Shown here: piece after piece, positions 1 to 46,000 of the stretch | Numbering within the stretch: the first letter of the stretch is position 1 | Layout of the letters: every line of letters begins with the position of its first letter | NCBI RefSeq assembly: GCF_003585925.1 | Contig: NZ_NRJH01000012.1 | Coordinates: 1 to 64,000 of the forward strand | DNA length: 64,000 bases | Origin: Psittacicella melopsittaci | GTDB taxonomy: Bacteria > Pseudomonadota > Gammaproteobacteria > Enterobacterales > Psittacicellaceae | Direction: 5' to 3' | Made by a program: the position numbers and the translations under genes | Notes under the pieces: model-generated | The model's input: only the letters and a program-made list of their open reading frames with translations | Told to the model about the DNA's origin: nothing | The model's database searches: none

Positions 1-3000
1 ACTACATCTGACAATGTAACTATTGACTCAGCTAACCGTTCAGTTTCTGTTATCGGTTCTAACATAACAGCAGAAAATTGTACAGTTAACATCACAGCTA
101 AAGAAAATACTACTAACGAAAATAGTAATATCTCTGGTAACACTGGCTTAATTATCAATGCTACTAATGGTACAGCGACAGTTAATGCTACTAACCTAAC
201 AGCAACTGGCGAAAATACTTCAATTAGCATTACAGGTAACCAAGGTGTTAATATCGGTAATGGTACTAATGTAACTGCTCCACAAAATGTTACTATTGAC
301 TCAGCTAATGGCTCAGTAAATGTTACAGGTTCTAACGTAACGGCTAACAATGGTACAGTTAACATCACTGCGAAAGAGAATACAACTATCGAGAATAGTA
401 ATATCTCTGGTAAACAAGGTGTTAATGTAGATGCAGAAAACGGCACTACAACTATTAACGCAACTAACGTTACAAGTGAAAACGGTTCTGTAAATGTAAC
501 TGGTAACCAAGGTGTTTACATTGGTAATGGTACTAATGTAACAGCTGCAGACAACGTAACTGTAACAACTCCAAATGGTTCTGTTTCTGTAATCGGTTCT
601 AACGTAACAGCGAACAATGGTACAGTTAACATCACTGCTAAAGAGAATACAACTATCGAAAATAGTAATATCTCTGGTAAACAAGGTGTTAACGTAGATG
701 CAGAAAACGGCACTACAACTATTAACGCAACTAACGTTACAAGTGAAAACGGTTCTGTAAATGTAACTGGTAACCAAGGTGTTTACATTGGTAATGGTAC
801 TAATGTAACAGCTGCAGACAACGTAACTGTAACAACTCCAAATGGTTCTGTTTCTGTAATCGGTTCTAACGTAACAGCGAACAATGGTACAGTTAACATC
901 ACGGCTAAAGAGAATACAACTATCGAGAATAGTAATATCTCTGGTAACCAAGGTGTTAATATCGACGCTGAAAACGGCACTACAACTATTAACGCAACTA
1001 ACGTTACTTCTAACAACGGTTCAGTGAACATTACTGGTAACCAAGCGGTGAACATTGGTAACGGTACTAACGTTACAGCTGCTGATAATGTAACTATTGA
1101 TTCATCTAATGGTTCAGTAAATGTTACAGGTTCTAACGTAACAGCTAACAATGGTACAGTTAACATCACTGCTAAAGAAAATGTTACTATTGAAAACAGC
1201 AACATTTCTGGTAACCAAGGTGTTAACGTAGACGCTGAAAACGGCACTACAACTATTAACGCAACTAACGTTACAAGTGAAAACGGTTCTGTAAATGTAA
1301 CTGGTAACCAAGGTGTTTACATTGGTAATGGTACTAATGTAACAGCGGGTAACAACGTAACAGTTGATTCACCAAATGGTTCTGTTTCTGTAATCGGTTC
1401 TAACGTAACAGCGAACAATGGTACAGTTAACATCACGGCTAAAGAAAATACAACTATCGAGAATAGTAATATCTCTGGTAACCAAGGTGTTAATATCGAC
1501 GCTGAAAACGGCACTACAACTATTAACGCAACTAACGTTACTTCTAACAACGGTTCAGTGAACATTACAGGTAACCAAGCGGTGAACATTGGTAACGGTA
1601 CTAACGTTACAGCTGGTAACAATGTAACTATTGATTCATCTAATGGCTCAGTTAATGTTACAGGTTCTAACGTAACAGCTAACAATGGTACAGTTAACAT
1701 CACAGCTAAAGAAAATGTTACTATCGAAAATAGTAATATCTCTGGTAACCAAGGTGTTAACGTAGACGCTGAAAACGGCACTACAACTATTAACGCTACT
1801 AATGTTACTTCTGAAAATGGTTCAGTGAACATTACTGGTAACCAAGGCGTGAACATTGGTAACGGTACTAACGTAACAGCTGCTGACAATGTAACTATTG
1901 ATTCATCTAATGGTTCAGTAAATGTTACAGGTTCTAACGTAACTGCAAATAACGGTACAGTTAACATCACGGCGAAGGAAAATGTTACTATTGAAAACAG
2001 CAACATTTCTGGTAACCAAGGTGTTAATATCGACGCTGAAAACGGCACTACAACAATTAATGCAACTAATGTAACTGCTGAAAACGGTTCAGTGAACATT
2101 ACTGGTAACCAAGGCGTAAATATCGGTAACGGTACTAACGTTACAGCAGGTAACAATGTAACTATTGATTCATCTAATGGCTCAGTAAATGTTACAGGTT
2201 CTAACGTAACAGCGAACAATGGTACAGTTAACATCACGGCTAAAGAAAACGTTACTATCGTAAACAGTAATATTTCTGGTAACCAAGGTGTTAATATCGA
2301 CGCTGAAAACGGCACTACAACTATTAACGCAACTAATGTAACTGCTGAAAACGGTTCAGTGAACATTACTGGTAACCAAGGCGTGAATATCGGTAACGGT
2401 ACTAACGTTACAGCTGGTAACAATGTAACTATTGATTCATCTAATGGTTCAGTAAATGTTACAGGTTCGAATGTAACAGCTAACAATGGTACAGTTAACA
2501 TCACTGCTAAAGAAAACATTACTATCGAAAACAGTAATATTACTGGTAACCAAGGTGTAGACATTAATGCAACTAATGGTACAACTACTATTAATGCAAC
2601 AAATATCTCTGCTCCTAACGGTTCAGTGAACATTACTGGTAACCAAGCGGTGAACATTGGTAATGGTACTAACATTAGTAGTCAAGGTGATGTGAACATT
2701 AACTCAACTAATGGTTCTGTAAATGTAACAGGTACAAATGTAACAACTAATGGCAATGTTAATATCACTGCTAAAGAGAATATTACGATTAATAACTCTA
2801 ACTTCAGTGGTAAAGACTTCTACTCGAATGCTACAAACGGTAGTTCAACAATTACCAACAGTACCTTCAACTTTACGAACATAACTGTTGATGCTAATGG
2901 TTCTAATACCTTTGATAACAACAATGTTAATATCACCAACAACACTCACCTCAGTGGTGATCCTGTAAGCTTTACTAATAACTCAGGTGTTATCGATAAG

Positions 3001-3450
3001 AACCCAGTTATTAACAATGTGACTTGTGGTACGGATACTACTAAACAAAACAACCCGAATCTAACCATAACTAATCCGGTTGTTGATCCTAGCATAGATC
3101 CGAACTACGATGATTGGTTATTAGAAGATGAAAGTGATGAAGTTAAACGTTCAGCTGGCTACATCACCGATAACGATGTACCTCTACCAGCAGGTGAAGG
3201 GGTAACCGTAACTAAAGATGGCTTCCAAATCTCAACATGTTACGTAGTTATTGATGACATCTTAGAACGTTACAACGTAACGCTCGAAGACGCTCAAAAC
3301 CTAACTACGCAAGAGATTATTGAGAAATACAACATCTCTGGAGACGATCGTCGTCGCTTCGAACAATCATGTCAACTTGTTCCTGGCTACCTCAGAACTA
3401 AGACTATCTTAGCTCCTGGATATAATCCTTCAGGTAGTAGTAACGAGTAA
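1..3450 (+). CDS. Giant repeat adhesin, C-terminal part (5' end outside window)
   Basis: The frame is open from base 1 to the TAA at 3448-3450 (1149 codons); the N-terminus and any secretion signal lie upstream of the window. The visible protein is almost entirely Asn/Thr/Val/Gly-rich beta-helix-like repeats of 89 residues, nearly every position following an N-x-T/S pattern. From about base 2820 the repeats end in a different domain with NNSN and THLSGDP stretches, then an acidic segment (DDWLLEDESDE) and a tail with Cys in CGTDTT, STCYVV and QSCQLVP. This resembles secreted adhesins of the two-partner or autotransporter classes, but no C-terminal beta-barrel is present, so a TpsA/HMW-type exoprotein is favoured. 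No partner transporter is visible. Inference: surface attachment. A strong hairpin terminator follows. Family identity of the missing N-terminus is unknown. Confidence 0.85.
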   Translation, partial: TTSDNVTIDSANRSVSVIGSNITAENCTVNITAKENTTNENSNISGNTGLIINATNGTATVNATNLTATGENTSISITGNQGVNIGNGTNVTAPQNVTIDSANGSVNVTGSNVTANNGTVNITAKENTTIENSNISGKQGVNVDAENGTTTINATNVTSENGSVNVTGNQGVYIGNGTNVTAADNVTVTTPNGSVSVIGSNVTANNGTVNITAKENTTIENSNISGKQGVNVDAENGTTTINATNVTSENGSVNVTGNQGVYIGNGTNVTAADNVTVTTPNGSVSVIGSNVTANNGTVNITAKENTTIENSNISGNQGVNIDAENGTTTINATNVTSNNGSVNITGNQAVNIGNGTNVTAADNVTIDSSNGSVNVTGSNVTANNGTVNITAKENVTIENSNISGNQGVNVDAENGTTTINATNVTSENGSVNVTGNQGVYIGNGTNVTAGNNVTVDSPNGSVSVIGSNVTANNGTVNITAKENTTIENSNISGNQGVNIDAENGTTTINATNVTSNNGSVNITGNQAVNIGNGTNVTAGNNVTIDSSNGSVNVTGSNVTANNGTVNITAKENVTIENSNISGNQGVNVDAENGTTTINATNVTSENGSVNITGNQGVNIGNGTNVTAADNVTIDSSNGSVNVTGSNVTANNGTVNITAKENVTIENSNISGNQGVNIDAENGTTTINATNVTAENGSVNITGNQGVNIGNGTNVTAGNNVTIDSSNGSVNVTGSNVTANNGTVNITAKENVTIVNSNISGNQGVNIDAENGTTTINATNVTAENGSVNITGNQGVNIGNGTNVTAGNNVTIDSSNGSVNVTGSNVTANNGTVNITAKENITIENSNITGNQGVDINATNGTTTINATNISAPNGSVNITGNQAVNIGNGTNISSQGDVNINSTNGSVNVTGTNVTTNGNVNITAKENITINNSNFSGKDFYSNATNGSSTITNSTFNFTNITVDANGSNTFDNNNVNITNNTHLSGDPVSFTNNSGVIDKNPVINNVTCGTDTTKQNNPNLTITNPVVDPSIDPNYDDWLLEDESDEVKRSAGYITDNDVPLPAGEGVTVTKDGFQISTCYVVIDDILERYNVTLEDAQNLTTQEIIEKYNISGDDRRRFEQSCQLVPGYLRTKTILAPGYNPSGSSNE
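235..2790 (+). repeat. Nine-plus exact-length 267-bp tandem repeats inside the adhesin gene
   Basis: The marker GGTAACCAAG starts at 235, 502, 769, 1036, 1303, 1570, 1837, 2104, 2371 and 2638, a constant spacing of 267 bp (89 codons). Copies are near-identical, with a few swapped variants (NQGVYIG, NQAVNIG, NQGVNIG). The last copy decays after about 2790 and the region before 235 is a more degenerate copy. Length is conserved to the base, so copy number changes keep the frame. Confidence 0.95.
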
Positions 3451-3477: not shown

Positions 3478-3509
3478 GCAGACTAGCTCAGCTAGTCTGC
3501 CTTTTTTTA
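3478..3509 (+). terminator. Rho-independent terminator of the adhesin gene
   Basis: Stem GCAGACTAGC / GCTAGTCTGC with loop TCA, followed by CTTTTTTT, 28 bases after the adhesin stop codon. Confidence 0.9.
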
Positions 3510-10307: not shown

Positions 10308-11615
10308 ATGTCATTTCTAGAACAGATAAAAACAATAACAAATAATCTTATTAATAAAAGCCGCCAAAAACTAATTGCGGTTCTAACAAATAAACCAGGT
10401 TCGGTAGAATCTGCAGAAGACCTTGAACAACAAATTGAATACCTCAACAACAATAAAGCAATAGATATTCACATTGCTAAAATGTTAAAAGGGGTATTAA
10501 GCATTCGTAATTTACGTGCTCGTGATCTCATGATCCCACGTGCTCATATTGATTACTTTGAGTCTGACCAAACTCTCGAAGATGTATTAAATGCCGTATT
10601 AGAAAACGGGCATAGTCGTTATCCAATTCTCGATGACAACAACGACGATCAAGAAGCAATTAGCTTACTTTTTACGAAAGATTTACTTCGTGTTCTTATT
10701 GACCAAAAAGTAGATCAAGTAAGCCTCACGGAAATTGCCAAACCAATTAAAATTATCCCTGAAACCAAACATGTAACTACTTTATTACAAGAGTTCCAAA
10801 GTTCACGTACTCATCTAGCTCTAGTAGTTAATGAGTTTGGGGAGATTTCAGGATTAATTACTATTGAAGATATTCTTGAAGAAATTGTTGGTGATATTTC
10901 AGATGAGTTTGATAAAGAAGATCTCTTTATCCAGCAAGTAAGTAAAACATCTTTTGATGTTTTAGCTAAAACCCCAATTTATCTCTTTAACGAAGCTTTT
11001 GGTTGTGAACTTTCAGATCAAGAGTTTGATACTATTGGGGGCTATGTTTTTGGTTTACTCGGACACATGCCTATACGTAATGAGTCTATAGACTTAATTC
11101 CAGGCAAACTAATTGCTCGTATTACCCAAGTTAATGAACGTCAAATTCTCAAACTAAGAGTAAGAGCCATTCAAGACTATAGTGTAAAACTGAAAAAAGA
11201 AATTGCTGAGGTAACTAATACCGAACAGGCTGCTCAGGTAGTAGCTGAAGCTAATGCTCAAGCAGAGCAAGCTAAGGCTCAAACAGAGCAAGCTAATGCT
11301 CAAGTTGAACAAGCAAATGCTCAAGCAGAACAAGCTAACGCTCAAGCTGAGCAAGCAAAGGCTCAAGGAGAGCAAGCTAACGCTCAAGCTGAACAAGCTA
11401 ACGCTCAAGCTGAACAAGCTAACGCTCAAGCTGAACAAGCTAATGCTCAAGCTGAACAAGCTAATGCTCAAGCAGAGCAAGCAAGTGCTCAAACAGAGCA
11501 AGAAAACGCTCAGGCAGAGCAAGCAAAGGCTCAAGCAGAGCAAGTAAATGCAACGGCAACGGTAAACCCAGAGCAAGCACCTCTTACTAATGATAAAGCA
11601 GAACAGGAGAAATAG
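10308..11615 (+). CDS. corC: CorC/HlyC-family CBS-domain protein with heptad-repeat tail
   Basis: CorC (YbeX) proteins are cytoplasmic CBS-pair proteins linked to cobalt/magnesium efflux or envelope stress. The sequence shows the N-terminal LRARDLMIPRAHIDYF (about 69-84), a CBS pair (about 75-200; EFGEISGLITIEDILEEIVG is the end of CBS2) and the transporter-associated CorC_HlyC domain (about 212-290; FDTIGGYVFGLLGHMP). E. coli YbeX has 292 residues; this protein has 435 because residues 316-413 are 14 copies of a 7-residue Ala/Gln/Glu unit (NAQAEQA), likely an extended coil. It sits five bases before lnt, the conserved corC-lnt order. The tail is the odd part and has no known role. The start is set by the ATG after the promoter; no clear ribosome site is seen. 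Confidence 0.92.
   Translation: MSFLEQIKTITNNLINKSRQKLIAVLTNKPGSVESAEDLEQQIEYLNNNKAIDIHIAKMLKGVLSIRNLRARDLMIPRAHIDYFESDQTLEDVLNAVLENGHSRYPILDDNNDDQEAISLLFTKDLLRVLIDQKVDQVSLTEIAKPIKIIPETKHVTTLLQEFQSSRTHLALVVNEFGEISGLITIEDILEEIVGDISDEFDKEDLFIQQVSKTSFDVLAKTPIYLFNEAFGCELSDQEFDTIGGYVFGLLGHMPIRNESIDLIPGKLIARITQVNERQILKLRVRAIQDYSVKLKKEIAEVTNTEQAAQVVAEANAQAEQAKAQTEQANAQVEQANAQAEQANAQAEQAKAQGEQANAQAEQANAQAEQANAQAEQANAQAEQANAQAEQASAQTEQENAQAEQAKAQAEQVNATATVNPEQAPLTNDKAEQEK
11254..11547 (+). repeat. 14 x 21-bp tandem repeat encoding the CorC tail
   Basis: Units of GCTCAAGCTGAACAAGCTAA type, 21 bp each, exactly 14 copies, with five consecutive near-identical ones in the middle. Each unit encodes NAQAEQA with small variations (K, S, T, V, G). 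The repeats also keep other frames open, which explains spurious frames on both strands. Confidence 0.95.
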
Positions 11616-22985: not shown

Positions 22986-25900
22986 ATGAATTTAAGTGAA
23001 AATGAATTTGAAAAAAACGTAATCGACACTTTAACTAGTTTATACCCATATGGTTGGGATTTTTTAAACAGTAAACTTACCCGTGAAAGCGATTATGTAT
23101 CTGAAGACAGGTTATTAAGAAACCTTAAAGAAATCATAGAAAGAAACAACCGTTCGATATTACTTCAATCAGGCTCGGCAAAACTTGACGACCAAGAATT
23201 CAAAGAAGTTATTAATGAGATTAGGGAATCTATCTACAACAAAGAAAATTCTAAAGGATTTGTGCCATTTAATGCGGCTGTCTTTTTACAAAGTAGTGGT
23301 AGACCTACCGAAGTCCAAATTACCCGTACAAGTGATCACAAAGAACATAAAATATCTTTAATTCTCTTTTCTTCGGATGAGAAAAAACCTCAAGGGTATA
23401 GAGACTACCAACCGACTTATCAAATTGCTCAACAAGTTCAAATTGGTAACTACCGTGCGGATTTAATGTTACTAATTGATGGTCTTCCTGTAGTTCTCTT
23501 TGAGAATAAAAGAAAAGATGTAGATATTAATGGAGCTTATAGTCAAGTTAAGCGTTATCTTAATGAAATCGATCAAAAACAACTAACAATTTTCTCTACA
23601 ATTCAAGTTTGTGCAGTAGCTAAAGAAAATGAGTTAAGATACTTTGCTCGTCCAAATACTAACGAAGATATTGACAGAAAATATTGCTATCAATGGACCG
23701 AAAAAAATAAAGACATCAAAACCTTCGGTGATCTCCATTTAAAAAGAATTGATCTCGATAGTCAAAAGGAAATTCCGGCTTCATTTGAGGTTCCAGTAAC
23801 TGACGTAACTTTAGTGTTAAAAAATCTATTTACCCCTCTAAATACACGTCATATGGTGACTAACCATATTATTACTGAAAAAGGTATCAGGCCTAGAATT
23901 ATGCTCATGCGTAAATACCAAGCTAAGGCAGTAGATGAGTGCATTTCTCGAATTAACAAAATGCTAACCCATCTTGACGATGAGGGACACTTTACGCAAG
24001 TTGGTAGTGATATAGAGCCAATAGTGCAAAAAACTAAAACGGTAGTTAACCGCTTAGGTTATGTATGGCATACTACGGGAGCGGGGAAAACCGTAACCAG
24101 TTTTAAAATTGCTAACCTTATTGCCCGCAGTGAAAGTAAAATCCAAAAAGTAGTTTTTCTTGTTGATCGTATTGACTTAAGAAAACAAACTTATGATAAC
24201 TTCAGTCGCTTTTTAACTTCGTCTGAAGACAGCCTTATAGTTATCGATAACTCAGAAGGAAGTGGTAGTAGAACCCTTGGGGAAGCTCTTGCAAGCAACC
24301 AAACAAATAATATTACTATTACTACTATTCAAACTTTACATAAGTTCCTTACTAGCTCTAACCCTGAGTATAAAGAGTTAGCCGATATAGCAGCCGAAAA
24401 AAATATTCTGTTTATTGTTGATGAAGCCCATCGTTCGACAAGCGGTGACTCTTTAAAAGAGATTCGTAATATTCTAAAATACACCGCATGGATTGGTTTT
24501 ACTGGTACTCCGAATCTCGATGACTATAAACCAGAATATCTCGGAACTTACAAAAACACCGAGGCTATATTTGGTAAATTAGTACACTCATATACCATTT
24601 TACAAGCTATTTATGATAATAACGTGCTTGGTTTTGATGTGCACTTTACCCAAATAGATAACATTCAACAGGTTTTTGATCCAGAAAAAAATACTGACTT
24701 TGCTAACTTTGCGGCAAAAGAAAAATTTACTTTTGAGCCGTATGAAGATGAAAGTCCAGATGATTACAATAAGCGCTATAACGAAGTTACGGATAAATAC
24801 CTTAACTTAAAACTCAAGCACGCAGAGCAAAGTCAAGTTGCTAAAAACTATATTAAAAGCATAGTTGCCTTTACGCTAGAAAACTGGAAGCTCTTTTCTA
24901 AAGAGCGTAAATTCAGTGGTATGTTAACTACCACTTCCATTAACATGGCTTATCACATTTTCTGTGAGTTTAGAGATCAACTTGCACAAATGAGTGAAGA
25001 AAGGAAAAAAGCTCTCTTTGTTGACAACCTGAAGTTTACGGCTATTTTTAGTGACAAAGTTGATAATAAAGGCGATGGCGATGACAAAGCCTACTTAAAA
25101 GAAATCAGAGAGCACTACCGTAATACTCTTGGCTTCAATGATAACTTCCATGAAAGTGATGCTATGGAACGTATCAAGCGCGTTAATCGTAAAGAAAAAG
25201 AGGATCCTAAAGAATATTTAGACTTAATTATTGTTGTTGACAAGCTTTTAACTGGGTTTGATGCACCAAAACTACACACTTTAATTGTTGATCGTATCTT
25301 AAGTGGCGCAAAACTAATTCAAGCTTACTCAAGAACTAACCGTCTTTCTAATTACAAACCTTACGGTAAGATCATTAATTTACGTGCACCACAACGTAAT
25401 AAAGAAGAGTTCTTAGCAGCTATGAAAACCTACTCGGGACTTAGTGAAGATGATAAGTTTGATGCTAAGGTTATAATGCCTGAGCAGGATGAGCTGGTAA
25501 TAAGAATTGCTAAACGCCAAGAAGATTTAGCAAGAGTTAATGCTGTATTTAGCAACTCTGAATCCCCGTTTAATCTCCCGTACATTCGTGAATATGGTTT
25601 AGCAGGTCTCGCAATTCCAGATCTAACTTCAACAGACGAAGGCTCTGAAAGCTATAAGTTATTAAAAGAGTTGCACTCTATTCTGAGAGATATTAATTAC
25701 TTAACTCTGCAAGCTAAAGACCGTCCTTTAGAATATAATGCCGAGGGTAAACTTATTTCTGGTTATGATGAAAATGACCCTGATGCGTTTTATGAATCTC
25801 TAGGTCTTAAAGATAAAGAGACCTACCAAAAAGGTTATGTGGATCCTCAATCTCTCATTGGACAGCAATTAGCTAACTTTCGGGCAAGTAAAAAGTCAGA

Positions 25901-26615
25901 AAATCCTAATTCACCCTTTCTCGAAGAAGAAGAGGTAGAAGAAGATCAAATTGGCGATAATCTTTACCAATTAAATATTCTTGAAGAAGAAAATCTTCGT
26001 GTTACTAAACAAAAAGTTATAGAGTTTATCCATCAGTTTATTGATACTGGCTTAGCTACCACCCCAACGCGCGAAGCCTTTATTGAAACAACTCTAAAAA
26101 CTTTAGAGACTCTAAAAACTATGGATTACTACGAGATAGCGTCTCACTTTAAAGCAGCCCTTGCGTGTGTTGAAAATGAACTCAATTCTTTATTTAACAG
26201 TAATAAAAATTTTGATGTAGAAGAACTGGAGAAACACTTCAAAGAGTTCTTCAAGAACGCGCAAAGCATTATCGAAGGCAATAATAGCGGAGATTCTCTC
26301 AATAGTATAGTTTTCGGTTTTCAGTTTGATGTCTTTATTGACAAAGTTAAAAGTAATCCTTCTACATATCCGTTTATCAACTTTGATGAACAAACTATAA
26401 AGACAATTGAAAAGTTTAGAAAAGAGGCTATTTATAATCTCAACAATCCTAATAGTGATGTAAGAACTTTCCGCCCTCGAATTTCATATTTTACTGATGA
26501 AATTAACAAAAGTAGAAGTCGATTTGTAATATTAAGCGACTCTGATCCTGTAAAAATCTTTGAAAACGACTTAAACAGAATCGTTACCGCAGCTTATCAA
26601 ATTCCAGAAGCTTAA
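22986..26615 (+). CDS. Type I restriction enzyme R subunit-like protein, copy 1
   Basis: HsdR proteins combine an endonuclease and a DNA translocase motor. The N-terminal nuclease shows the PD-(D/E)xK core: the Asp of NYRADLMLLIDG (about 158) and LFENKRK (about 173-179). Motor motifs follow: Walker A WHTTGAGKT (about 360), DEAHRST (about 477), GFTGTPN (about 503) and AYSRTNRL (about 783). A long C-terminal helical domain completes 1209 residues, within the upper range for the family. It is followed by a close paralogue at 27155, and neither HsdM nor HsdS is in the window. All nuclease and motor residues look intact. The ATG is chosen because the nearby promoter and the paralogue begin alike (MNLSENEFEKN / MKITESQFESN). 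Possible roles: restriction with a methylase encoded elsewhere, or a stand-alone defence. Confidence 0.92.
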   Translation: MNLSENEFEKNVIDTLTSLYPYGWDFLNSKLTRESDYVSEDRLLRNLKEIIERNNRSILLQSGSAKLDDQEFKEVINEIRESIYNKENSKGFVPFNAAVFLQSSGRPTEVQITRTSDHKEHKISLILFSSDEKKPQGYRDYQPTYQIAQQVQIGNYRADLMLLIDGLPVVLFENKRKDVDINGAYSQVKRYLNEIDQKQLTIFSTIQVCAVAKENELRYFARPNTNEDIDRKYCYQWTEKNKDIKTFGDLHLKRIDLDSQKEIPASFEVPVTDVTLVLKNLFTPLNTRHMVTNHIITEKGIRPRIMLMRKYQAKAVDECISRINKMLTHLDDEGHFTQVGSDIEPIVQKTKTVVNRLGYVWHTTGAGKTVTSFKIANLIARSESKIQKVVFLVDRIDLRKQTYDNFSRFLTSSEDSLIVIDNSEGSGSRTLGEALASNQTNNITITTIQTLHKFLTSSNPEYKELADIAAEKNILFIVDEAHRSTSGDSLKEIRNILKYTAWIGFTGTPNLDDYKPEYLGTYKNTEAIFGKLVHSYTILQAIYDNNVLGFDVHFTQIDNIQQVFDPEKNTDFANFAAKEKFTFEPYEDESPDDYNKRYNEVTDKYLNLKLKHAEQSQVAKNYIKSIVAFTLENWKLFSKERKFSGMLTTTSINMAYHIFCEFRDQLAQMSEERKKALFVDNLKFTAIFSDKVDNKGDGDDKAYLKEIREHYRNTLGFNDNFHESDAMERIKRVNRKEKEDPKEYLDLIIVVDKLLTGFDAPKLHTLIVDRILSGAKLIQAYSRTNRLSNYKPYGKIINLRAPQRNKEEFLAAMKTYSGLSEDDKFDAKVIMPEQDELVIRIAKRQEDLARVNAVFSNSESPFNLPYIREYGLAGLAIPDLTSTDEGSESYKLLKELHSILRDINYLTLQAKDRPLEYNAEGKLISGYDENDPDAFYESLGLKDKETYQKGYVDPQSLIGQQLANFRASKKSENPNSPFLEEEEVEEDQIGDNLYQLNILEEENLRVTKQKVIEFIHQFIDTGLATTPTREAFIETTLKTLETLKTMDYYEIASHFKAALACVENELNSLFNSNKNFDVEELEKHFKEFFKNAQSIIEGNNSGDSLNSIVFGFQFDVFIDKVKSNPSTYPFINFDEQTIKTIEKFRKEAIYNLNNPNSDVRTFRPRISYFTDEINKSRSRFVILSDSDPVKIFENDLNRIVTAAYQIPEA

Positions 26616-27154: not shown

Positions 27155-30100
27155 ATGAAAATTACGGAATCTCAATTTGAAAGTAACATTATAGAAACTT
27201 TAACTAGTTTACAGCCTCGTGCTTGGGAGTTTTTAAATAATAAGCTAAATAAAAAAAGCACTTATTTAACTGAAAATGATTTAAAAGAAAATCTTAAAGA
27301 AATCATTGAAAGAAACAACCGTACTATATTAATTAAATCTGGCTCGGCAGAACTTAAGGAACAAGAATTCAGAGAAATTCTTAATGAAATTGAGGAATCT
27401 ATCTACAACAAAGAAAATTCTAAAGGATTTGTGCCATTTAATGCAGCAGTATTTTTACAAAGTAGTGGTAGAGCTACCGAAGTCAAAATTACCCGTAAAG
27501 GTGACGACGAAAATAAAAAAACGCCTTTAGTTCTATTTTCTCCAGAAGAGAAAAAACCTAATGGGTACAGAGACTACGAACCTACTTATCAAATTGCTCA
27601 ACAAGTTCAAATTGGTAACTACCGTGCGGATTTAATGTTACTAATTGATGGCCTCCCAGTAGTTCTCTTTGAGAATAAAAGAGAAGATGTAGATATTAAT
27701 AGAGCTTATAATCAAGTTAAGACTTATCTTAAGGAAATCGATAATAAACATCTAACCATTTTCTCTACAATTCAAGTATGCGTAGTAGCTAAAGAAAATT
27801 GGTTAAGATACTTTGCTCGTCCAAATAAAAACGATAAGATTGACAAAAATTATTGTTATCAATGGACTGAAAGAAGTAAAGATATCAAAAACCTCGGCGA
27901 GCACCAATTACAAAGAATAGATCTATATAGTCAAAAGGAAATTCCAGCTTCATTTGAGACTCCAGTAACTGACGTAACTTTAGTGCTAGAGAGACTATTT
28001 ACTCCTCTAAATGTACGTAATATGGTGACTAACCATATTATTGCTGAAAAAGGTATCAAGCCTAGAATTATGCTCATGCGTAAGTACCAAGCTAAGGCAG
28101 TAGATGAGTGCATTTCTCGGATTAACAAAATGCTAACCCATCTTGACGATGATGGACACTTTACGCAAGTTGATAACGATATTAATCCAACTCTACAAAA
28201 AACTAAAACGGTAGTTAACCGCTTAGGTTATGTATGGCATACAACGGGAGCGGGGAAAACCGTAACTAGTTTTAAAATCGCTAACCTTATTGCTCGCAGT
28301 GAAAATAAAATCCAAAAAGTAGTTTTTCTTGTCGATCGTATTGACTTGAGAAAACAAACTCATAATAACTTCAGTCGCTTTTTAACGTCGTCTGAAAACA
28401 GCCTTATAGTTATAGATAATTCAATAGGAAGTGGCAGTGAAAGTGACAGTGAAAACACCAGTGAAAACACCAGTGAAAGTGGTAGTAAAAGTAGCAGTAA
28501 AGGTGGCAGTAAAAGTGGCAGTATAAAACTTGGGGAAGCTCTCGCAGACGACGAAAAAAATAATATTATTATTACTACTATTCAAACTTTACATAAGTTC
28601 CTTACTAGCTCTAACCCTAAGTATAAAGAGTTAATCGATAATGCGTCTGAAAAAAATATTCTGTTTATTGTTGATGAAGCCCATCGTTCGACAAGCGGTG
28701 ACTCTTTAAAAGAGATTCGTAATATTCTAAAATACACCGCATGGATTGGTTTTACAGGTACTCCGAATCTCGATGACTATAAACAGGAAAATCAAGGAAA
28801 ACATAAAAACACCGAGGCTATATTTGGTAACTTAATACACTCATATACCATTTTACAAGCTATTTATGATAGGAATGTGCTTGGTTTTGATGTGCATTTT
28901 ACCCAAATAGAAGACATTAAACAGGTTTTTGATCCAGAAAAAAATACTGACTTTGCTAACTTTGCGGTAAAAGAAAAATTTTCTTTTAAGCCGTATGAAA
29001 ATGAAAGTCCAGATGATTATACTAAGCGCTATAACGAATTTACGGACAAATACCTTAACTCAAAACTCAAAGAAGAACAAAGTCAAATTGCCAAAAACTA
29101 TATAAAAAGCATAGTTGCCTTTACGCTTAAAAACTGGAAGCTCTTTTCTAAAGAGCGTAAATTCAGTAGTATGTTAACCACCTCTTCCATTAACATGGCT
29201 TATCACATTTTCTGTGAGTTTAGAGATCAACTTGCACAAATGAGTGAGGCAGAGAAAAAAGCTCTCTTTGTTGACAACCTGAAGTTTACGGCTATTTTTA
29301 GTAACACGGTTGATTATAAAGGCGATGGCGATGACAAAGCCTACTTAAAAGAAATCAGAGAACACTACCATAATACTCTTGGCTTCAATGAGAACTTCCA
29401 TGAAAGTGATGCTATGGAACGTATCAAGCGCGTTAATCGTAAAGAAAAAGAGGATCCTAAAGAATATTTAGACTTAATTATTGTTGTTGACAAGCTTTTA
29501 ACCGGGTTTGATGCACCAAAACTACATACTTTAATTGTTGATCGTGTCTTAAGTGGAGCAAAACTAATTCAAGCTTATTCAAGAACTAATCGTCTTTATA
29601 AGAGGATCAAACCTTTTGGTAAGATCATTAATTTACGTGCACCACAACGTAATAAAGAAGAGTTCTTAGCAGCTATGAAAACCTACTCGGGACTAAGTAA
29701 AGGAGATAAGTTTGATACTAAGGTTATCATGCCTGATCGAAAAAACCTGCGTAAAATAATTACTAAAAGGAAGATAGATTTAGTAAGAATTTTTAAAAAA
29801 CATTTCAATTCTGAATCTCCGATTAATCTCAGTCACATTAGTAAATATGGTTTATCAAGACTCGAAATTCCAGATATAACTTCAATAGAAGAAGATGCTG
29901 ACACATATAAGCACTTAAAAAGTGTGAACCGTATTCTGCAAGGCATTATTAAATTAACTCTGCAAGCTAAAGATAGTCCTTTAGAATATAATGCCAAGGG
30001 TAAACTTATTTCTGGTTATGATGAAAATGACCCTGATTCATTTTATAAACGTCTAGGTCTTAAGGATAAAGACACCTACCAAAAAGGTTATACGAAAGTT

Positions 30101-30865
30101 CATTCTATCATTAAACAGCAAATAGCTAACTATCGGGCAAGTCAAAAGTCAGAAAATCCTAATTCATCCTTTCTCGAAGAAGAGTTAGAAGTAGATCAAA
30201 TTGGCGAAGCTCTTTACCAATTAAATATTCTTGAAGAAGAAAACCTTCGCGTTACTAAACAAAAAGTTATAGAGTTTATCCATCAGTTTATTGATGTTGG
30301 CTTAGCTACCACCCCAACGCGCGAAGCCTTTATTAAAACAACTCTAAAAACTTTAGAAACTCTAAAAACTATGGATTACTACACGGTAACGCCTCACTTT
30401 AGAGTTGCCCTTGCGTGTATTGAAAATGGACTCAATGATTTATTTAACAGTAATAAAAATTTTGATGTTGAAGAACTGGAGAATCACTTCAAAGAGTTCT
30501 TCAAGAACACGCAAAGCATAATCGAAGGCAATAGAAGCGTAGATTCCATCAAGAGTATAGTTTTCGATTTTCAGTTTGATGCCCTTATTGACAAAGTGAA
30601 AAGTGATCCTACTACATATTCGTTTATCAACTTTGATGAACAAACTATAGAGGTAATTGAAAAGTTTAAAGAAACTATAGTTTATAATCTCAACAATCCT
30701 AATAGTGATGTAAAATTTTTCAGCAATCAAATTAAACATTTTACTGATGAAATTAACACAAGTAGACGTTCATTTGCAATATATAGCGAATCAGATCCTG
30801 AAAAAATCTTTGAAAACGATTTAGAAAGAATCATTAATGAAGCTTATCGAATTCCAACCTCTTAA
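27155..30865 (+). CDS. Type I restriction enzyme R subunit-like protein, copy 2
   Basis: This paralogue aligns with copy 1 over its whole length, with long identical stretches in the motor and more divergence at residues 860-1000. Nuclease residues (RADLMLLIDG, LFENKRE), WHTTGAGKT, DEAHRST, GFTGTPN and AYSRTNRL are all kept. It differs by a Ser/Gly/Glu/Lys low-complexity insertion (about residues 425-455, after NSIGSGS) between the Walker A and DEAH motifs, which accounts for its greater length (1236). The start has a good AGGAGC site. Retention of all motifs in both copies argues against decay. Same context note: no HsdM or HsdS nearby. Confidence 0.92.
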   Translation: MKITESQFESNIIETLTSLQPRAWEFLNNKLNKKSTYLTENDLKENLKEIIERNNRTILIKSGSAELKEQEFREILNEIEESIYNKENSKGFVPFNAAVFLQSSGRATEVKITRKGDDENKKTPLVLFSPEEKKPNGYRDYEPTYQIAQQVQIGNYRADLMLLIDGLPVVLFENKREDVDINRAYNQVKTYLKEIDNKHLTIFSTIQVCVVAKENWLRYFARPNKNDKIDKNYCYQWTERSKDIKNLGEHQLQRIDLYSQKEIPASFETPVTDVTLVLERLFTPLNVRNMVTNHIIAEKGIKPRIMLMRKYQAKAVDECISRINKMLTHLDDDGHFTQVDNDINPTLQKTKTVVNRLGYVWHTTGAGKTVTSFKIANLIARSENKIQKVVFLVDRIDLRKQTHNNFSRFLTSSENSLIVIDNSIGSGSESDSENTSENTSESGSKSSSKGGSKSGSIKLGEALADDEKNNIIITTIQTLHKFLTSSNPKYKELIDNASEKNILFIVDEAHRSTSGDSLKEIRNILKYTAWIGFTGTPNLDDYKQENQGKHKNTEAIFGNLIHSYTILQAIYDRNVLGFDVHFTQIEDIKQVFDPEKNTDFANFAVKEKFSFKPYENESPDDYTKRYNEFTDKYLNSKLKEEQSQIAKNYIKSIVAFTLKNWKLFSKERKFSSMLTTSSINMAYHIFCEFRDQLAQMSEAEKKALFVDNLKFTAIFSNTVDYKGDGDDKAYLKEIREHYHNTLGFNENFHESDAMERIKRVNRKEKEDPKEYLDLIIVVDKLLTGFDAPKLHTLIVDRVLSGAKLIQAYSRTNRLYKRIKPFGKIINLRAPQRNKEEFLAAMKTYSGLSKGDKFDTKVIMPDRKNLRKIITKRKIDLVRIFKKHFNSESPINLSHISKYGLSRLEIPDITSIEEDADTYKHLKSVNRILQGIIKLTLQAKDSPLEYNAKGKLISGYDENDPDSFYKRLGLKDKDTYQKGYTKVHSIIKQQIANYRASQKSENPNSSFLEEELEVDQIGEALYQLNILEEENLRVTKQKVIEFIHQFIDVGLATTPTREAFIKTTLKTLETLKTMDYYTVTPHFRVALACIENGLNDLFNSNKNFDVEELENHFKEFFKNTQSIIEGNRSVDSIKSIVFDFQFDALIDKVKSDPTTYSFINFDEQTIEVIEKFKETIVYNLNNPNSDVKFFSNQIKHFTDEINTSRRSFAIYSESDPEKIFENDLERIINEAYRIPTS
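28430..28525 (+). repeat. Ser-rich short repeats inserted in second hsdR copy
   Basis: Repeats of AGTGGCAGTGAAAGT and AACACCAGTGAA type, all in multiples of three, absent from copy 1 where GGAAGTGGTAGTAGAACC stands at the same point. Confidence 0.8.
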
Positions 30866-37043: not shown

Positions 37044-40000
37044 ATGAATAGAATATATCGACTAAAATTAAATGATCAGGGACGCTTAGTTGTCGTTTCT
37101 GAAATCTGCAATCATGCAGGTAAAACCACAGGTGCGGTTCAAAGCACCCCAGTTGAGCTAGAGGACTATACTCTCTCAACAGAAGATAATTTAAAAATTT
37201 CGCGTATTGCCCGTCAAGGCACTAATACATTTACATCTAGCATCTGCCAACTTACAAAACGAGCTGGTAGAGCCCTAGGCATGTCTGCAACTTTAGCTAT
37301 AGCTCTATTGGGTAGTATGAGCTTAAGCGCTAAAGCACTTGCTATTAGTGGGGATCCTAGCGTAATCGCAGGTAAAGCCCAAATCGATGTAAATGGCCTA
37401 GTTACTAATATTACTTCGGTTACTGATCGTACAATTATTGATTGGAAAACTTTCAATATCGGAGTAAACGAAATCTATAACTTTATCCAAAACTCTGCGG
37501 ACTCAGCAGTACTTAACCGTGTTCTTGGTGGTCAAGTATCACAAATTCTTGGTACCCTAAGATCAAACGGACAAGTATTTATTGTTAACCCAGCAGGGAT
37601 AGTGTTTGGTAAAACAGCTACAGTTGACGTAAACTCTTTAGTAGCTTCAACTCTTGATATTAGCAATGAAGACTTCTTAGCTGGCAAGTTAAACTTTAAC
37701 TCTAGCAATGATGAAAAAATAGCAGCTATTTTAAACCAAGGTCTTATTAGCGTTGATAAAAATGGTCACATTGCCTTAGTAGGTGGTCAAGTAGTAAACA
37801 ACGGTATTCTAAAAAGTGAAAACGGTAATGTTTTCTTACTTGCAGGTCAATCAATTCAAATTAGTGACTTTAACAACCCACAAATTGTTTACACCATTAA
37901 AGCAGGTAACCAAGCGGTTAACCTTGGAGAAATCTTTGCGGGTAAACAAGGTTTAGTATTTGGTCACCAAGTAATTAACCAAGGAACAATTAAAGCAAAT
38001 GTTTCAGCTAATGGTAGTGTAGAACTTTACGCTTTAGGTGAAGGTTCGGGTACTTATGTGCCTAGCACTAACACTATTAGTGTAAGTGCTAAAGGCGAAG
38101 AACAAGGGGTTGTAATTAACAATGGTACTCTTGTTGGTCAGCAAGTTAAAGTAAATGGTGACAATATCTATTTACTTGGCAACTCAAGCATTCAAGCTCA
38201 AGCTAATGGTGAGCAAGCAGGTAAAGTTGCTATTGGTGGCTTAAACCAAGTTGGTAATGTTGCTGCTTTAGCTAAAGATGATAGCCAACTTAAAGCTCAA
38301 AAATTAGTAGTTAATAAAAACGCAACTACTCGTGCCCAAGGAACAAGCAAACAAGGTGGAGAAATCCTTGCTTATGCTAATGTAGCTTACTTTGCGGGTA
38401 ACTGGGAAACTACTGACAAGGCTGGCTTAGTAGAAACTTCTGCTAACCACGCTTACTTTAGTGATGACTTTAATGTAAGCACTAACGGTGGGACTTGGTT
38501 ATTAGACCCATTAAACATTAATGTAGTTAATGGTACAGCTCTTAACTACAATGTAAGCGATAACACTAATGTAATTTACGATTATAATCTGCAAGCTGAT
38601 GGCTCAGTTCTCATTCACTATATTAATAATGATTACAGCAATCTAGTTGCAGATACTTCAAGCACTAATTATAGCTTAAGTCTTACTGATAGCTTTATTA
38701 ACAAGCGTTTAGAGCAAAATCACGTTTACCTCTATACTCCAGATGGTAACGTAAGCTTTACTGATGCGGTAATTACTGGCTCTGATTTAAGCTTTGATTT
38801 CTATGTTTTTGCTCGTCAAGGTAATATTAGTCTTTACAATACTACTATTAACATTAGTAATAAAGATGCCGCAGTTAACCTAGTTGCAGGTAACTCAATT
38901 TACCTTAATAACAGTAACGTTACCGCAGCTAACCAAACTTACGCAGCGGTAAGAAGAATTGTTGTAGATAATACTACCCTTACTGGTAACTTAAGCTTCG
39001 CTACTGGTAGCAATGTATTTGAGAACTGGGAAGATACTATTTCTGGTTTAAATCCAGGTGGTACTTTTAACTATTCGCAAACTTCAACAACAAACGCTGG
39101 TGCAGATCAAGATACAAGCTCAACTGGAACTAAAGAAGCTATTCCTGATCCAAATGAACAAGTAGATAGCACAGCTAGCGAATATCGCTCAGGCTTTGCT
39201 TACTCAATTGCCGAAAGTGATCGTACCATTCAATTTACTAATTCGACTTTAAATATTACTAATGCAAATGCAAGCATTAACACTAATGGAACCATTGGTT
39301 TTAGTAATGTAACAGTGCTTGGTAATGCTAATAGTGTGGTTGCTGATGGTACTACTGCAAGTCAAGATTTAGTAAAAAGATTAAGTGCGTATAGAAGTAA
39401 TTTAAACATTACTTCTGGTCGTGGTGTGCTCTTTGAAGGTAACTTTGCGGTTAACAGTGCTTTAGTTAACCTAAACGCAACTTCAACTGATGAAACTGTA
39501 GTGGCTATTACCTTTACTGCAGGTACAGCTCTCAATGCAACTAACAATGGGGTTATTAACCTCTTTGCCACATCGAGCAACGGGTCAACTGCTATAAGTT
39601 ACCTCAGTAAAAACCGCTATCAAGCAACTTATGATAACGGAACTTATATAGATCCAGATCTGCAAGATACCGTGAACTTAAGCGGACGCTTCTTTATTAC
39701 CGCTAAAGTAACGAACGAAGACTATGCTCTTTCTTCAATTGCAGATCTTACAGATGCAACTCTTAATTTAGATAATGCTAACTTAACGCTAATGTATTAC
39801 AACTCAGATACTATTAGTCGCTTAAGTAGTCTCTATTTTAAAGATATTAATCTAACAAATAAATCAACGCTCTATACTTTTAACCTCAACAACAATGGTG
39901 AGTTTACTTCCCTAACTGAAAGAGGTAACCCAGTTATTATTTACGGTAACGTAAGCGTAACTAATAACTCTTTATTACGTCTTAACTCTCGTGGTGGCGT

Positions 40001-43000
40001 GTATTTTTCAAGCATGAACTACGATGACGATGGGGAACTTGTTAAAAGTAAATTCTATATAGAGCAAGGGTCTTATTTTAATAGTTATTCGCCGACCATT
40101 ATTTTTGAAGACTATGAAGTAGATATCCAAGGTGCTTCTAACATTGGTGAGTACCAACCGAACCAAAGTATTAATCTAATCTTCAAAAACGTAGATGCAA
40201 ACCTTTCTGGGGTTAACCTCGTAAACTTAAATAATTTATCGGCAACTTTTGTAGATAGTAATGTTAGTGACTTTAACCTAAGTGCGACAGCTTTAAAAGC
40301 TTTCCAACTTTATAGTGAAAACTCTAAGTACATTAACTCTACGGTAAATATTAATAGCACAGGTGAGGCTAACTTATATTTTCTCAGCACTACTTTTAAT
40401 AATACAAATGTAGATGTTAAAGGGGCTTCTGTTTTTGCTAACCGTATTTGTGCAAGTGAAGTAGCACACATTAACCTAACTAATAACTCTACCCTGAACT
40501 TTACTACAGGTAATGCAACCTCTGATGGTTTTGTGGATGCTGGAGTTTTAACTTTAGGTAACCTAAATATTACTAGTGACAACACGAATAATAGCCTAAA
40601 CTTTAGTGCTAAAGAGCTTAACTTTGCGGGAACTCTTGGTTATAGTGCGAATGTAGCTTTACAAAACTACACGGCAAATAACATAACGGTTAACAATAAA
40701 CTTAACCTAACGGCAAGAAATGAAGCAAGCAAGGCAATTGCTGAGCGTGTTTTAGGTACCGAGGATAATGAACAAAAAACTTCAGGTATCTACTTTACGG
40801 GTTACAACATTAGCGTGAACAACAACCTCACGGCTAATGCAGATGTGCTTGATTTCCACGCAACGCAAAGCTTAAATATTGCTGGTAAAGTTAATGTTAC
40901 AGGTCAAGTTTACCTCGGAGATTACCGTAGTAAAAACGACTTCCAAGGTACAGGTACAGGTCTAAACCAATACTCTACCTACAATGTTAACCTCACAGGG
41001 GAGTTAAATGTTGAAGGTGATATTACTGCTCGTAATAACATTACCCTAGATAACGGGGGTAGCCTCAATGTTAGTAATAACCTAACTTCAGATAGTAACA
41101 TTATTAACCAAAACGGCTCTGTTACGGCAAATAACATCACCGCTAACTTCTATGTACAAAGAAACGGTAGCACTAAAGTTAACCATACCCTAAAAGTGTC
41201 ACGTAACTTTGTAGCTGCTGTAGGTACAGTTGATATTAATTCCTTAACGGCAACCAATATAACCCTAAGCAGTAGAAATGCTCTGCAAATTAAAAACCTA
41301 GACTATACCACCAACCTAAATATTATCGGTGGAGCAAGTCTAACTGCCAATAATGTAACTGCAGGTGCTCAAGCTACAACTAATATTGCAGGTAACTTAA
41401 CTGTAACTGAATCTCTTAAAGTAAATGATATTACTCTTGACGGTGGTAGCCTCACTTCACAAGGGCAAACAAGTATAACCGGTGACTTTAATGCTACAGA
41501 TGCAAGCATTAATCTCGGTGACTTTACCTATAGCAAAGCATTTAACTTTACTAATACAAGCTTAAATGCAAGCAACCTCAACCTTGAACAATTCCAAGCA
41601 ACGGCAGGTAATAGCTTTAATGTAACAGGCACTCTAACTGCCAAAGATGTAGAAATCGATGGAGCAAATGTAAGTGCTGGTACTCTAGTAGCTGCTGAAG
41701 GTAATGTAGATGTTAAAAACAACTCTAACCTGACAGTAACGCAAAACTTAATTACCAAAGAGTTTAACGCAGAAAATGCAAGCTTAGATCTTGCTAACGT
41801 TGCCGTAAATAAATTTAGCACTAAAGATGTAGAGCTAAATAGTACTGGTCTAATTAACGCTCCAGAAGTAGTTTTAGGAGAAAATACAACCGCTTCTTTA
41901 ACTAACTTAAATGCAACTAACATTAATGTAACTGGTGCGAAAACAAACGTTAAAATTAGCCATAACTTAAGCAGTGAAAACCTAACCGTTACTCAGAACG
42001 CTAACCTTAGCACTGATAACGCTTCGGTAGGACAAAGCTTTAACGTAACTGAAGGTGGTCAAGTTGTTGTAACTGGTAAAACTGTAGCTCACAATATTAC
42101 AGTTAAAGACTACAACTCTAATGCAGCATTTAGTGAGATTACGGCAACTACAATTGACATTAGCGAAAATGGAAAAGCTTACCTCGGCGTAGCTGATATT
42201 AATACCCTAAATACTTCAGGGATTAGTACTGAAGTTTACGCAACAAATATTGCGGCAACTAATGTTAACGTTGATGAAGACTCACGTCTGCAAGTAGATA
42301 ACCAAATTAGAACCACAAATCTAAATGTTGGTGGTCGTGCAACTTTAGTGGCTATAAATGCTACAGCTAATGAAGTAAACATTAGTGGCAACAGTTGGGC
42401 AAGTATTGATAATATCCAAGCAACTAACATTAGCGTAAAAGATTATGCAGGTGCTTTACTCTTTAACACTAGTGCAACTAATATAGTTGTTGAAGATAAT
42501 TCTTATGCAGATTTTTGCCAAGCAAATACTTACAACCTTACGGTAACTGACTCAAACGTTAGTTTCTATACGGCTAACATTACAAAAAATCTAACTCTAA
42601 CTAACAGTAGCCTTAAAGCTGAAGAATATGTTAGATCTTTAGATGAGATTAACCTCAACGGTAGTAATCTCACCACCAAAGACCTTGCGGTAGTTAATCT
42701 AACGGCAAGCAACTCAGCAAACATTACCGTAAACCAAAGCTTAAGAGGAACTAACATTTCTCTTAACAATAGTAAGCTTGCGGTAGCCGAAGATGTAGTG
42801 GCACAAAACGCTCTGATTACTAACGAGAGTGCGATAAAAGCAGGTAATTTAACTGCTGCACATCAGCTTAATGTTGATAACGCACAAGTTGAAGTTAACC
42901 ATAGTATTAATGCAGGTGAGACTCAGTTTAGCCAAGCTAAAGTACAGGCAACTAACTTAACCAGCGACAAGTTAACTGTTCAAGGTTCAGATGTAGATTT

Positions 43001-46000
43001 AACTAACCTAACCGTAGCTGAGACTACAAGCATCGACAAAAATGCTAACCTAAATGCAACTAGTATCCGTACTGATGCTCTGGTAGTTGACCAAGCTAAT
43101 GTAAGTGCAAACAACATTGCGGTTAATACAAGTGTAACTTTAACTAACCAAGCTAAAGTTAAAGCTAGCGATAGCCTTACTTCTATGGCTATTGACCTCA
43201 ACAACGCAAGTATTGAAGCAGGTGACCTCACTACTTCAACGGCAAAAATTGCTAACGATAGCCAAGTTAATGCAACTAATACCTTTATTGCAAACGAACT
43301 AACTATCGACAACTCTAACCTCAAAGCAAATAATGCTGTGGTTAATAGTACAGCAACTCTTTCTAACACCGCAAATGTTGAAGCAAATAATAACTTTACC
43401 GCTCGTGCTGTTAAAGTAGATAACGCTAGCCTCGCGGCAAATAATCTCAGCGTTGCTTTTGACATTGAAGCAAGCAATCACAGTGAAATTACCGCAAAAG
43501 ATACTATCTCTGCGAATATCCTCAGAGGTAATAATGTAAGCATTAGTGCTAATGATATTGACGTAAAATACGAAATATCTTTAACTAATAACTCTGCGGT
43601 AGAAGCTACAGGTAATGTAAGTGCAATTAACTTAGAAGTATTCAACTCAAGCTTAGATGCAGGTAACTTAAGTCTAAGTCAAAGTGCTAACTTTGCTGAT
43701 AACGCTAAAGTAAAAGTAAGCGATACATTTGATACATATTATCTGGTTGCTAATAACTCTACTTTAGAAGCAGGGGATCTAAGTGTAGAAACAACTGCTT
43801 TACTAAATAACACTAATGTTACTCTTGATGGTGATCTTTCTGCACAAGCTCTCGTAGCTAACAACACTAATCTAAGTGCAGATAATGTTAGTGTTACAGG
43901 TGATCTAGTAGTAGATAATGGTAAAGTATCAGCGCGTGATACTATTGAAGCAGAAAACTTTAATGCTTCTAATACCACAGTAACGGCAGCTAACCTTGAG
44001 GTAGAAAACAACGCTAGCCTCTCTAATGGCACAAAAGTTACTGTAACTGATACTTTAAGTGCAGCTAACCTTGAAGCTAATCAAGTTAAAGTTGAAACTG
44101 CAAACCTTAGTGTAACTAATAACCTTAGCCTCACTAGCGACACTACAGTTACTGCAAGTGATACTTTAAGTGCAGGTAACTTAACTGCCGATAATGTAAC
44201 TGTAAACTCTAATAAAGTTGTTGTAGATAATGACGCAACTTTAACTAATGTTTCAGTTACTGCTAAAAATGATCTAAGTGTAGGTGGTAACTTCAACTCT
44301 GCAGATACAGATGTAACTGCAAATAACGTTAATGTTGGCAAGGATGCTACTTTAACTAACGGTACAGTTACTGCTAAAAATGATCTAACTGTAGGTGGTA
44401 ACCTTAAAGCTGAAAAAGTTAACCTAAACGCTAACAACCTTAAAGTAGAAAATGATACTACTTTAACTGATGGTACAGTTACTGTAGGTAACGATCTAAC
44501 TGTAGGTGGAAACCTCAAAGCTGACAAAGTATCTGTAAACGCTAACAACCTAGAAGTAGGTGCAGACGCTACTTTAACTAACGGTTCAGTTACTACTGAA
44601 AATAACTTAAGTGTTGGTGGCAATCTTGAAGCAAACACTGTAGACTTAAAAGCTAATAACCTTACAGTTGCTCAAGATGTTACTCTAACTAATCTTACAG
44701 TTACTGCAAATAACGACCTAAATGTAGGTGGTAACCTTAACGCAGATAGAGTAGCTGTAAACGCTAATAACCTTACAGTAGCCGAAGATGCTACTCTAAC
44801 TAATGGTCCAGTTGCTTTAGGTAATGACCTAAGTGTAGGTGGTAACCTTAAAACAGAAAATGTAGTTGTAAACGCTAATGATGTTACTGTTGAAGGTGAT
44901 GCTACTTTAAGTAAGGGTGCAGTTTATGCTCGTAATGATCTAAGTGTTGGTGGTAGCCTCAACGCAGAAAATGTAAACTTAAACGCTAACAACAACGTTA
45001 AAGTAAACGAAGATGCTACTTTAACTAATGGTACAGTTACTGCTGGTAATGACTTAAGTGTTGGTGGTAGCCTCAACTCAGAAAATGTTGACTTAAGTGC
45101 TAACAACCTTACTGTTAACAAGGACGCTACTTTAACTAACGGTACAGTTACTGCTGGTAATGACCTAAGTGTTGGTGGTAGCCTCAACGCAGAAGAAGTA
45201 GACTTAAGTGCTAACAACCTTACTGTTAACAAGGACGCTACTTTAACTAACGGTACAGTTACTGCAGGTAATGACCTAAGTGTTGGTGGTAACCTCAATA
45301 CTGATAAAGTAGATGTAAGTGCAAATGACCTTACAGTTAACGGGGACGCTACTTTAACTAACGGTACAGTTACTGCAACTAACGACCTAAGTGTCGGCGG
45401 TAACCTCAATACTGATAAAGTAGATGTAAGTGCAAATGACCTTACAGTTAACGGGGACGCTACTTTAACTAACGGTACAGTTACTGCAACTAACGACTTA
45501 AGTGTTGGTGGTAACCTTAAAGCAGATAATGTAGATGTAACTGCTAACTACGTTACTGTTGGTAAAGAAGCTACTTTAACTAATGTTACTGTTACAGCAA
45601 GCGGTGATGTTAACGCTAATAGCTTAACAGCTGACAATGTAACTGTTACAGCAACTAACCTTGAGGTAGAAAACAACGCTAGCCTAACTAACGATACATC
45701 AGTTACGGTTACCGATACCTTAAGTGCAGGTAACTTAACTGCTGATAACACAACACTTAACGCTAATGACGTTAAAGTAGACAAAGATGCTAGTTTAACT
45801 GACGTTACCGTTAAAGCTGGTAATGACCTAAGTGTTGGTGGTAACCTTAAAGCAGATAATGTAGATGTAACTGCTAACGACGTTACTGTTGGTAAAGAAG
45901 CTACTTTAATTAATGTTACAGTTACAGCAGGTGGCGATGTTAAAGCTGGTAGCTTAACAGCTAACAATGCAACTGTTACAGCAAATGACGTTAAAGTAGA

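Follow-up and report, generated by a model that had tools for sequence, protein, structure and literature searches.

The window analyzed here, a 64,000-nucleotide stretch of DNA that begins with the first base of contig C4 of its genome (G000; 99 contigs, 91% complete), opens inside a tandem array of 267-bp units carried by one frame, P0001, which probably forms the 3′ portion of a gene for an HMW1/EtpA-type two-partner-secretion adhesin (TpsA). We consider it probable that the array encodes the shaft of this adhesin, and that the shaft is glycosylated by a single HMW1C enzyme, exported via a single TpsB, beta-helical and able to recombine by whole coils. In the cytoplasm the sole HMW1C-type enzyme would place hexoses on many of the N-X-S/T sites (sequons) of the adhesin, and the glycosylated protein would then be threaded through the sole TpsB pore of the adhesin-export kind. 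Outside the cell it would fold as a right-handed beta-helix, held at the surface by a C-terminal module with two cysteines, while recombination between units would change the length of the rod by whole coils and leave the fold intact. TpsA rods with HMW1C-type N-glycosylation are already known (HMW1, EtpA), and we regard the present case as a hyper-sequon, centralized variant of that system, with its glycosylation predicted from sequence.

The repeat array and the gene that carries it

The features of the window that bear on this reading, all on the plus strand, are the following.

1 to 3450, plus strand: tpsA-type adhesin gene, 3′ part (P0001), an ORF of 1149 codons open at its 5′ end (Fil_haemagg_2, E = 5.2e-35, Pfam)
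1 to 234, plus strand: partial diverged unit of the longer type (91 residues, 273 bp), by unit-model match
235 to 2637, plus strand: nine full 267-bp units of 89 codons each, with 14–16 N-X-S/T sequons per unit
2638 to 2904, plus strand: tenth, diverged unit, continuing into a C-terminal beta-helix cap (by identity, and by strands in a model of 2671–3447)
3238 to 3372, plus strand: helical C-terminal module flanked by a pair of cysteine codons with a spacing of 44 residues (C-X43-C), possibly a surface anchor
3478 to 3508, plus strand: hairpin with a T run after it, probably the adhesin gene's intrinsic terminator, seen by eye in the sequence
37044 to 48734, plus strand: second tpsA-type adhesin gene (P0002), which has 3896 codons, 216 sequons and a separate set of 108/111-bp repeats

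TRF reports a period of 267 with 10.0 copies, 86% matches and 0% indels over positions 11–2673, and the autocorrelation of positions 1–3450 is highest at exactly 267 (0.709) and its multiples (534, 801), with values of 0.21–0.32 at the other lags from 261 to 273. As GGTAACCAAG opens all ten unit starts (235, 502, 769, 1036, 1303, 1570, 1837, 2104, 2371 and 2638), the exact 267-bp spacing described in the initial annotation is borne out by all three measures. That annotation had placed an array of ten units at 235–2790; the starts are exact, but the array does not begin at 235, as it extends to base 1, where the contig end cuts it and makes ten a lower bound on the copy number. In the partial unit at 1–234, 78 residues align to 76 positions (14–89) of the unit model (E = 2.1e-24), so that this unit is two residues longer, and 273-bp units are also present in contigs C43, C55 and C56 (C14, C34, C39 and the like denote other contigs of G000; G001–G003 are relatives of its genome). 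The ‘near identity’ ascribed to the ten units was too strong a term: the nine full units have pairwise identities of 0.745–0.951, which corresponds to a 5–25% difference with none identical to another, and the tenth (from 2638) is a diverged cap with an identity of only 0.47–0.55 to the rest. The same divergence tempers the proposed recent expansion, which is favored by one adjacent pair of units sharing 209 identical bases (427 versus 694), the longest exact self-repeat.

The order and number of units would be unreal if short reads had joined or collapsed units from several genes during assembly. Contig C4 does start inside the array, nine contig ends of G000 fall inside ORFs of the adhesin family, and exact repeats reach the length just given. 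However, the nine full units are all distinct, the frame is open throughout, and C39 holds a complete array plus its flanks within one contig (27 units among the matches listed), and we consider even a partial assembly artefact rather improbable.

Reading the array as the shaft of a TpsA protein also draws on its paralogues. The 5′ part of P0001, with its N-terminal stretch, lies beyond the contig start; the paralogue on C14 has a TPS domain (PF05860, E = 1e-29), and its N-terminus finds 2odl as the top solved match (E = 3.1e-72), with EtpA next. P0002 has a TPS domain at 37386–38003 (E = 5.4e-28), and hmmscan of the whole protein gave no family. DUF2345 and three other weak matches of P0001 were set aside as repeat noise because no stretch passes on its own. 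The genes 3′ of P0001, named by eye, are presumably trmD and thrC. Elsewhere in the window there is an adjacent pair of type I restriction R-subunit-like genes (22986–26615 and 27155–30865), and an in-frame 21-bp repeat of 14.5 copies (11248–11551) forms the 3′ end of a CBS/CorC-type gene (10308–11615).

Modelled fold and sequon density

The structure model, computed from four units with nine further alignment rows from the window and its paralogues, has a pLDDT of 98.5, a pTM of 0.94 and 48 strands, or 12 per unit, and each 89-residue unit thereby forms four three-strand coils of a three-sided beta-helix in the model. Among solved structures it agrees best with the EtpA repeat region (Z 32.8, rmsd 1.9 over 341 of 356 residues), and other beta-helical proteins rank below from Z 29.5 downward; in Foldseek alone nothing reached E ≤ 0.001, the first hit being EtpA (4.2e-3). 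The computed model thus predicts a beta-helical fibre of the sort that characterizes TpsA proteins of the HMW1/EtpA type. Autocorrelation peaks in other family members, which include 43–45, 64–65, 87–91 and 132–133 residues, lie near multiples of a coil of ∼22 residues, and the peaks of P0002 at 37 and 111 indicate that coil length differs between family members.

Clean in-frame duplication alone would suffice to explain an exact period of 267. The coil count would further explain why indels seldom persist, as the unit appears to be made of whole coils, and we propose that unit length is held constant because a four-coil unit can recombine without breaking the fold; the 91-residue unit type implies that a change of two residues is tolerated. 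The nearly constant period of some coding repeats would in this way acquire a structural reason. The initial annotation had also proposed that the fibre lengthens or shortens in steps of 89 residues, and this holds in form, since the unit keeps the reading frame, corresponds to four coils in the model and differs in number between paralogues; natural length change would be the corresponding prediction.

The most striking property of the repeat unit is its sequon density. P0001 has 169 N-X-S/T motifs in 1149 residues versus 88 mirror motifs (S/T-X-N), and shuffles of its composition yield 59 ± 6 sequons with a maximum of 78 (n = 2000), while ten other ORFs of the window hold 32 sequons and 29 mirror motifs in 5399 residues. 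The 27 family ORFs had been picked by sequon and Asn content, and in the ten of them that are at least 1000 aa long with a recognizable motif the fibres contain 3286 sequons versus 1367 mirror motifs in 32,965 residues; the TPS domains of the same ten show no excess (13 versus 17 in 2212 residues). Two adhesin ORFs that fell under the selection cut have the same bias (237 versus 123 and 129 versus 58).

Across 16 modelled coils the sequon Asn is found 11 times in strand A, 16 times in strand B and 12 times in strand C, and in strand B it is the first strand residue in every coil. Where the middle residue of a sequon lies in a strand, 34 of 35 are V or I, and elsewhere all 24 are G or A; the Asn and Thr would presumably face outward, with the middle residue pointing into the core. 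Codon and recombination tests were run on the 22 full ungapped units scoring above 120 bits, from C4, C14, C47 and C56, with 43 more distant units excluded. Among these close units 14 of the 15 consensus sequons occur in all and the remaining one in 73%; retention in the 43 distant units is less strict (0.28–1.0). Of the seven amino-acid changes that fall on sequon positions, five exchange S for T or the reverse. Extra codon states at sequon positions are nonsynonymous in 7 and synonymous in 32 cases, compared with 37 and 49 at other positions (p = 0.008), and the contrast is weak when only other N, S and T positions are considered (10 nonsynonymous, 16 synonymous; p = 0.087), these p values being rough because the units are non-independent.

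A purely structural cause could also produce this pattern, as beta-helix turns favor Asn and strands favor beta-branched residues, which would give N-X-T without glycosylation. In the model the ladder Asn does open the strand and is followed by V or I and then by T or S, the mirror motif likewise exceeds the shuffle mean (91 at lag 2 versus 59), and the weak codon contrast with other N, S and T positions points the same way. However, fibres have an approximately twofold or greater surplus of N-X-S/T over its mirror that is missing from the TPS domains, which in solved relatives are beta-helical as well (PMC11463764), and an HMW1C enzyme is encoded in four of four genomes. The neighborhood of the adhesin family also contains a natural contrast: upstream of the C14 adhesin lies a distinct repeat protein (L009, 8829–11174, minus strand) with units that start EGLFSYGPAA and a two-cysteine end resembling that of the C47 adhesin, and it has 1 sequon versus 16 mirror motifs. 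(GP17 and Colicin_E5 matches of this protein were rejected as repeat noise, no stretch passing alone.) Taken together, a purely structural origin seems to us quite unlikely, and we retain glycosylation as the probable reason for the sequons.

EtpA, from the EtpA/EtpB/EtpC system of enterotoxigenic E. coli, resembles the present protein in being a TpsA rod with a beta-helix and tandem repeat modules. It is N-glycosylated by an HMW1C-type enzyme, as is predicted here. EtpA is described as having four repeat modules, with a glycan at about every 24th residue, and 96 canonical sites are mentioned (PMC11463764); P0001, in contrast, has about one canonical sequon per 7 residues and a C-terminal module with two cysteines, and the genes of its system are dispersed. 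Should the sites be used, the rod would have canonical N-glycan sites at approximately two to three times the per-residue density of EtpA, decorated with simple sugars by one cytoplasmic enzyme.

Glycosyltransferase, export pore and C-terminal module

An HMW1C-type gene is present once in each of G000, G001, G002 and G003, and 6 of the 59 genomes searched have one. The HMW1C-like protein of G000 (locus L018) matches PF18071 (E = 1.2e-21), PF18254 (E = 2e-30) and PF13844 (E = 1.4e-9), that is HMW1C_N, HMW1 domain 2 and GT41, and aligns with solved NGTs over residues 9–608, nearly its whole length (E = 2.9e-166). The closest named relatives of the gene are in Psittacicella gerlachiana (97%), P. 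hinzii B96_3 (91%) and P. hinzii 111 (78%). Psittacicella is on this basis the most likely genus of G000, and P. melopsittaci, the one named species left over, would be a guess at the species. A TpsB of the adhesin-export kind is likewise encoded by one gene in each of the four genomes, the relatives sharing 78–86% identity with the G000 copy; in G003 there is also a second, distinct ShlB, and at 91% completeness a second TpsB or HMW1C of G000 could escape the search. TPS-domain matches number 16 in G000, 9 in G001, 18 in G002 and 12 in G003, and as one front and two rear parts at contig ends could pair up, G000 has at least 15 TPS genes. The adhesin family seems to use one common export pore and one sugar-adding enzyme. 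Sequons in the fibre together with an HMW1C enzyme in the same genome are what would be expected of a TpsA protein of the HMW1/EtpA type.

The gene order is a different matter. No TpsA-like ORF occurs beside the HMW1C or TpsB genes among the listed neighboring ORFs of at least 150 aa, and the adjacency of tpsA, tpsB and glycosyltransferase genes typical of HMW1 and Etp loci is absent. HMW1/HMW2 of Haemophilus influenzae, with at least 31 modified sites in HMW1, shares with the present system a TpsA adhesin and an HMW1C glycosyltransferase, and the sequon-poor TPS domain resembles the glycan-free secretion domain of HMW1, whose pro-piece is non-glycosylated (PMC3983070). However, hmw1A, B and C are clustered, whereas enzyme and pore genes lie away from the adhesin genes here. 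Orphan HMW1C-like enzymes, as in Actinobacillus pleuropneumoniae and Kingella kingae, also have no adhesin gene adjoining the NGT gene; for all species reported by 2017, PMC5303269 gives autotransporter adhesins as the targets of such enzymes. In contrast, a search of the four genomes here for YadA-type anchors, one class of autotransporter, found none, and the plausible substrates are TpsA proteins. HMW1C enzymes have been divided into those beside tpsA/tpsB and those without obvious targets (PMC3983070); an orphan HMW1C enzyme acting on TpsA proteins would add another arrangement. There is precedent for a TpsB pore that exports more than one TpsA (PMC5422565).

It is conceivable, though we would stop just short of favoring it, that the whole system is centralized: an orphan NGT and an orphan TpsB would serve most of more than 12 dispersed TpsA genes, the rods would be selected for sequon density with a continuous ladder of sugars along one face of the beta-helix, and whole-coil recombination would alter rod length while keeping fold and ladder. 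If a single HMW1C enzyme is indeed at work, removing one gene would hit a dozen or more adhesins, which would offer a direct test of the purpose of HMW1C glycosylation, be it folding, protease shielding, anchoring or adhesion, and the promiscuity of TpsB would become testable on an unusual scale. In the titles, abstracts and excerpts covered by our literature search we found no published match for the sequon density, the layout of one enzyme, one pore and many dispersed adhesins, or the C-X43-C end, and among Psittacicella papers, by titles and abstract openings, none on its adhesins.

The two cysteines of P0001 stand 70 and 26 residues from its end, and their spacing of 44 recurs in 17 of the 21 family ORFs with a visible 3′ end, a sharing that is partly a selection effect because a C-terminal-domain model was used to locate the G001–G003 loci. 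The exceptions are P0002 (12), the C47 adhesin (26) and two interrupted ORFs with none. A model of 2671–3447 places helices at residues 182–243; its overall pLDDT is 78.3 and its pTM 0.54, with blocks from 191 to 240 at 79–90 and the preceding linker under 50. HMW1 requires a C-terminal disulfide for its tethering (PMC3983070), and on this analogy we infer that the module is a surface anchor. The cysteines of HMW1 are 10 apart (1518, 1528) versus 44 here, and P0001 has no such pair 10 apart within its last 20 residues. The C-terminal domain is present in 4 of 40 genomes, all of the same genus. Its alignment against genome contigs brought up 150 stretches with none confirmed (own and very near genomes being perhaps excluded), and the best Foldseek hit of the model, at E = 0.47, reveals no fold relative of the helical module.

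Paralogues, recombination and locus turnover

At E ≤ 1e-20 the unit has at least 77 matches in G000, at least 11 in G001, at least 4 in G002 and 2 in G003, the first three counts being lower bounds as 150 of 241–301 candidates were scored. These numbers make the expansion of the unit appear largely specific to the species of the window. The G000 matches are distributed over contigs C1, C4, C14, C34, C39, C43, C47, C55 and C56, and besides the C39 array, the genes on C43, C4 and C14 have 9, at least 10 and at least 11 units, respectively, among the matches listed. An alignment of the unit against viral contigs brought up 182 stretches with none confirmed, and a four-unit protein query against plasmids found nothing.

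The mosaic variants noted in the initial annotation are supported by an in-house PHI-type test on the 22 close units, whose statistic was 0.488, compared with 0.643 ± 0.018 when site order was permuted (p = 0.0002, the smallest value that 5000 permutations allow). Recombination among units is thus supported at the sequence level; it would occur inside the array, and perhaps also with unit-bearing paralogues, to yield mosaic units. The longest exact match to another contig examined is 137 bp, to C14, and the similarity of C4 to C14 units (0.826) is close to that among C4 units (0.850), so that either units move from gene to gene or C14 and C4 belong to a single gene. Joining C14, whose array is open at the contig end, to C4 failed, as the 12 contig ends compared share no exact terminal overlap of at least 15 bases, and C55 or C56 are equally possible partners.

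Such exchange could also mean that the main role of the array is antigenic variation, with paralogous arrays as a reservoir from which host-exposed unit variants are shuffled, a role compatible with a glycosylated shaft. The recombination test fits this idea, as do the patchwork of best matches among C4, C14 and C47 units, the abundance of unit matches on nine contigs of one genome and the turnover of the trmD-adjacent locus described below. Against it, protein variation within the array is small (mean column identity 93% across its units), and if C14 and C4 are two parts of one gene, inter-gene exchange is left unproven. We consider antigenic variation unlikely to be the main role, although it has more in its favor than the structural or assembly explanations, and continue to read the array as a shaft that recombines by whole coils.

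The trmD-adjacent locus varies among the relatives in both content and orientation, with no adhesin in G001, a co-directional adhesin in G002 and a frame-broken remnant in G003, and the trmD side may be a recurrent site of adhesin gain and loss. The G003 remnant (L130, 11830–13925), which lies between trmD and a DJ-1-like gene, is split over two frames and lacks a TPS domain. On C56, a lone in-frame TAA (L014, 658–660) close to the contig end breaks an adhesin frame into pieces of 4306 and 219 codons and is either a genuine interruption or a sequence error. Finally, contigs C113 (L131–L133) and C101 (L134–L135) of G002 carry frames of 14,652 and 10,020 codons that are open at the contig end, with 1251 and 834 sequons, respectively, and nearly identical C-termini.
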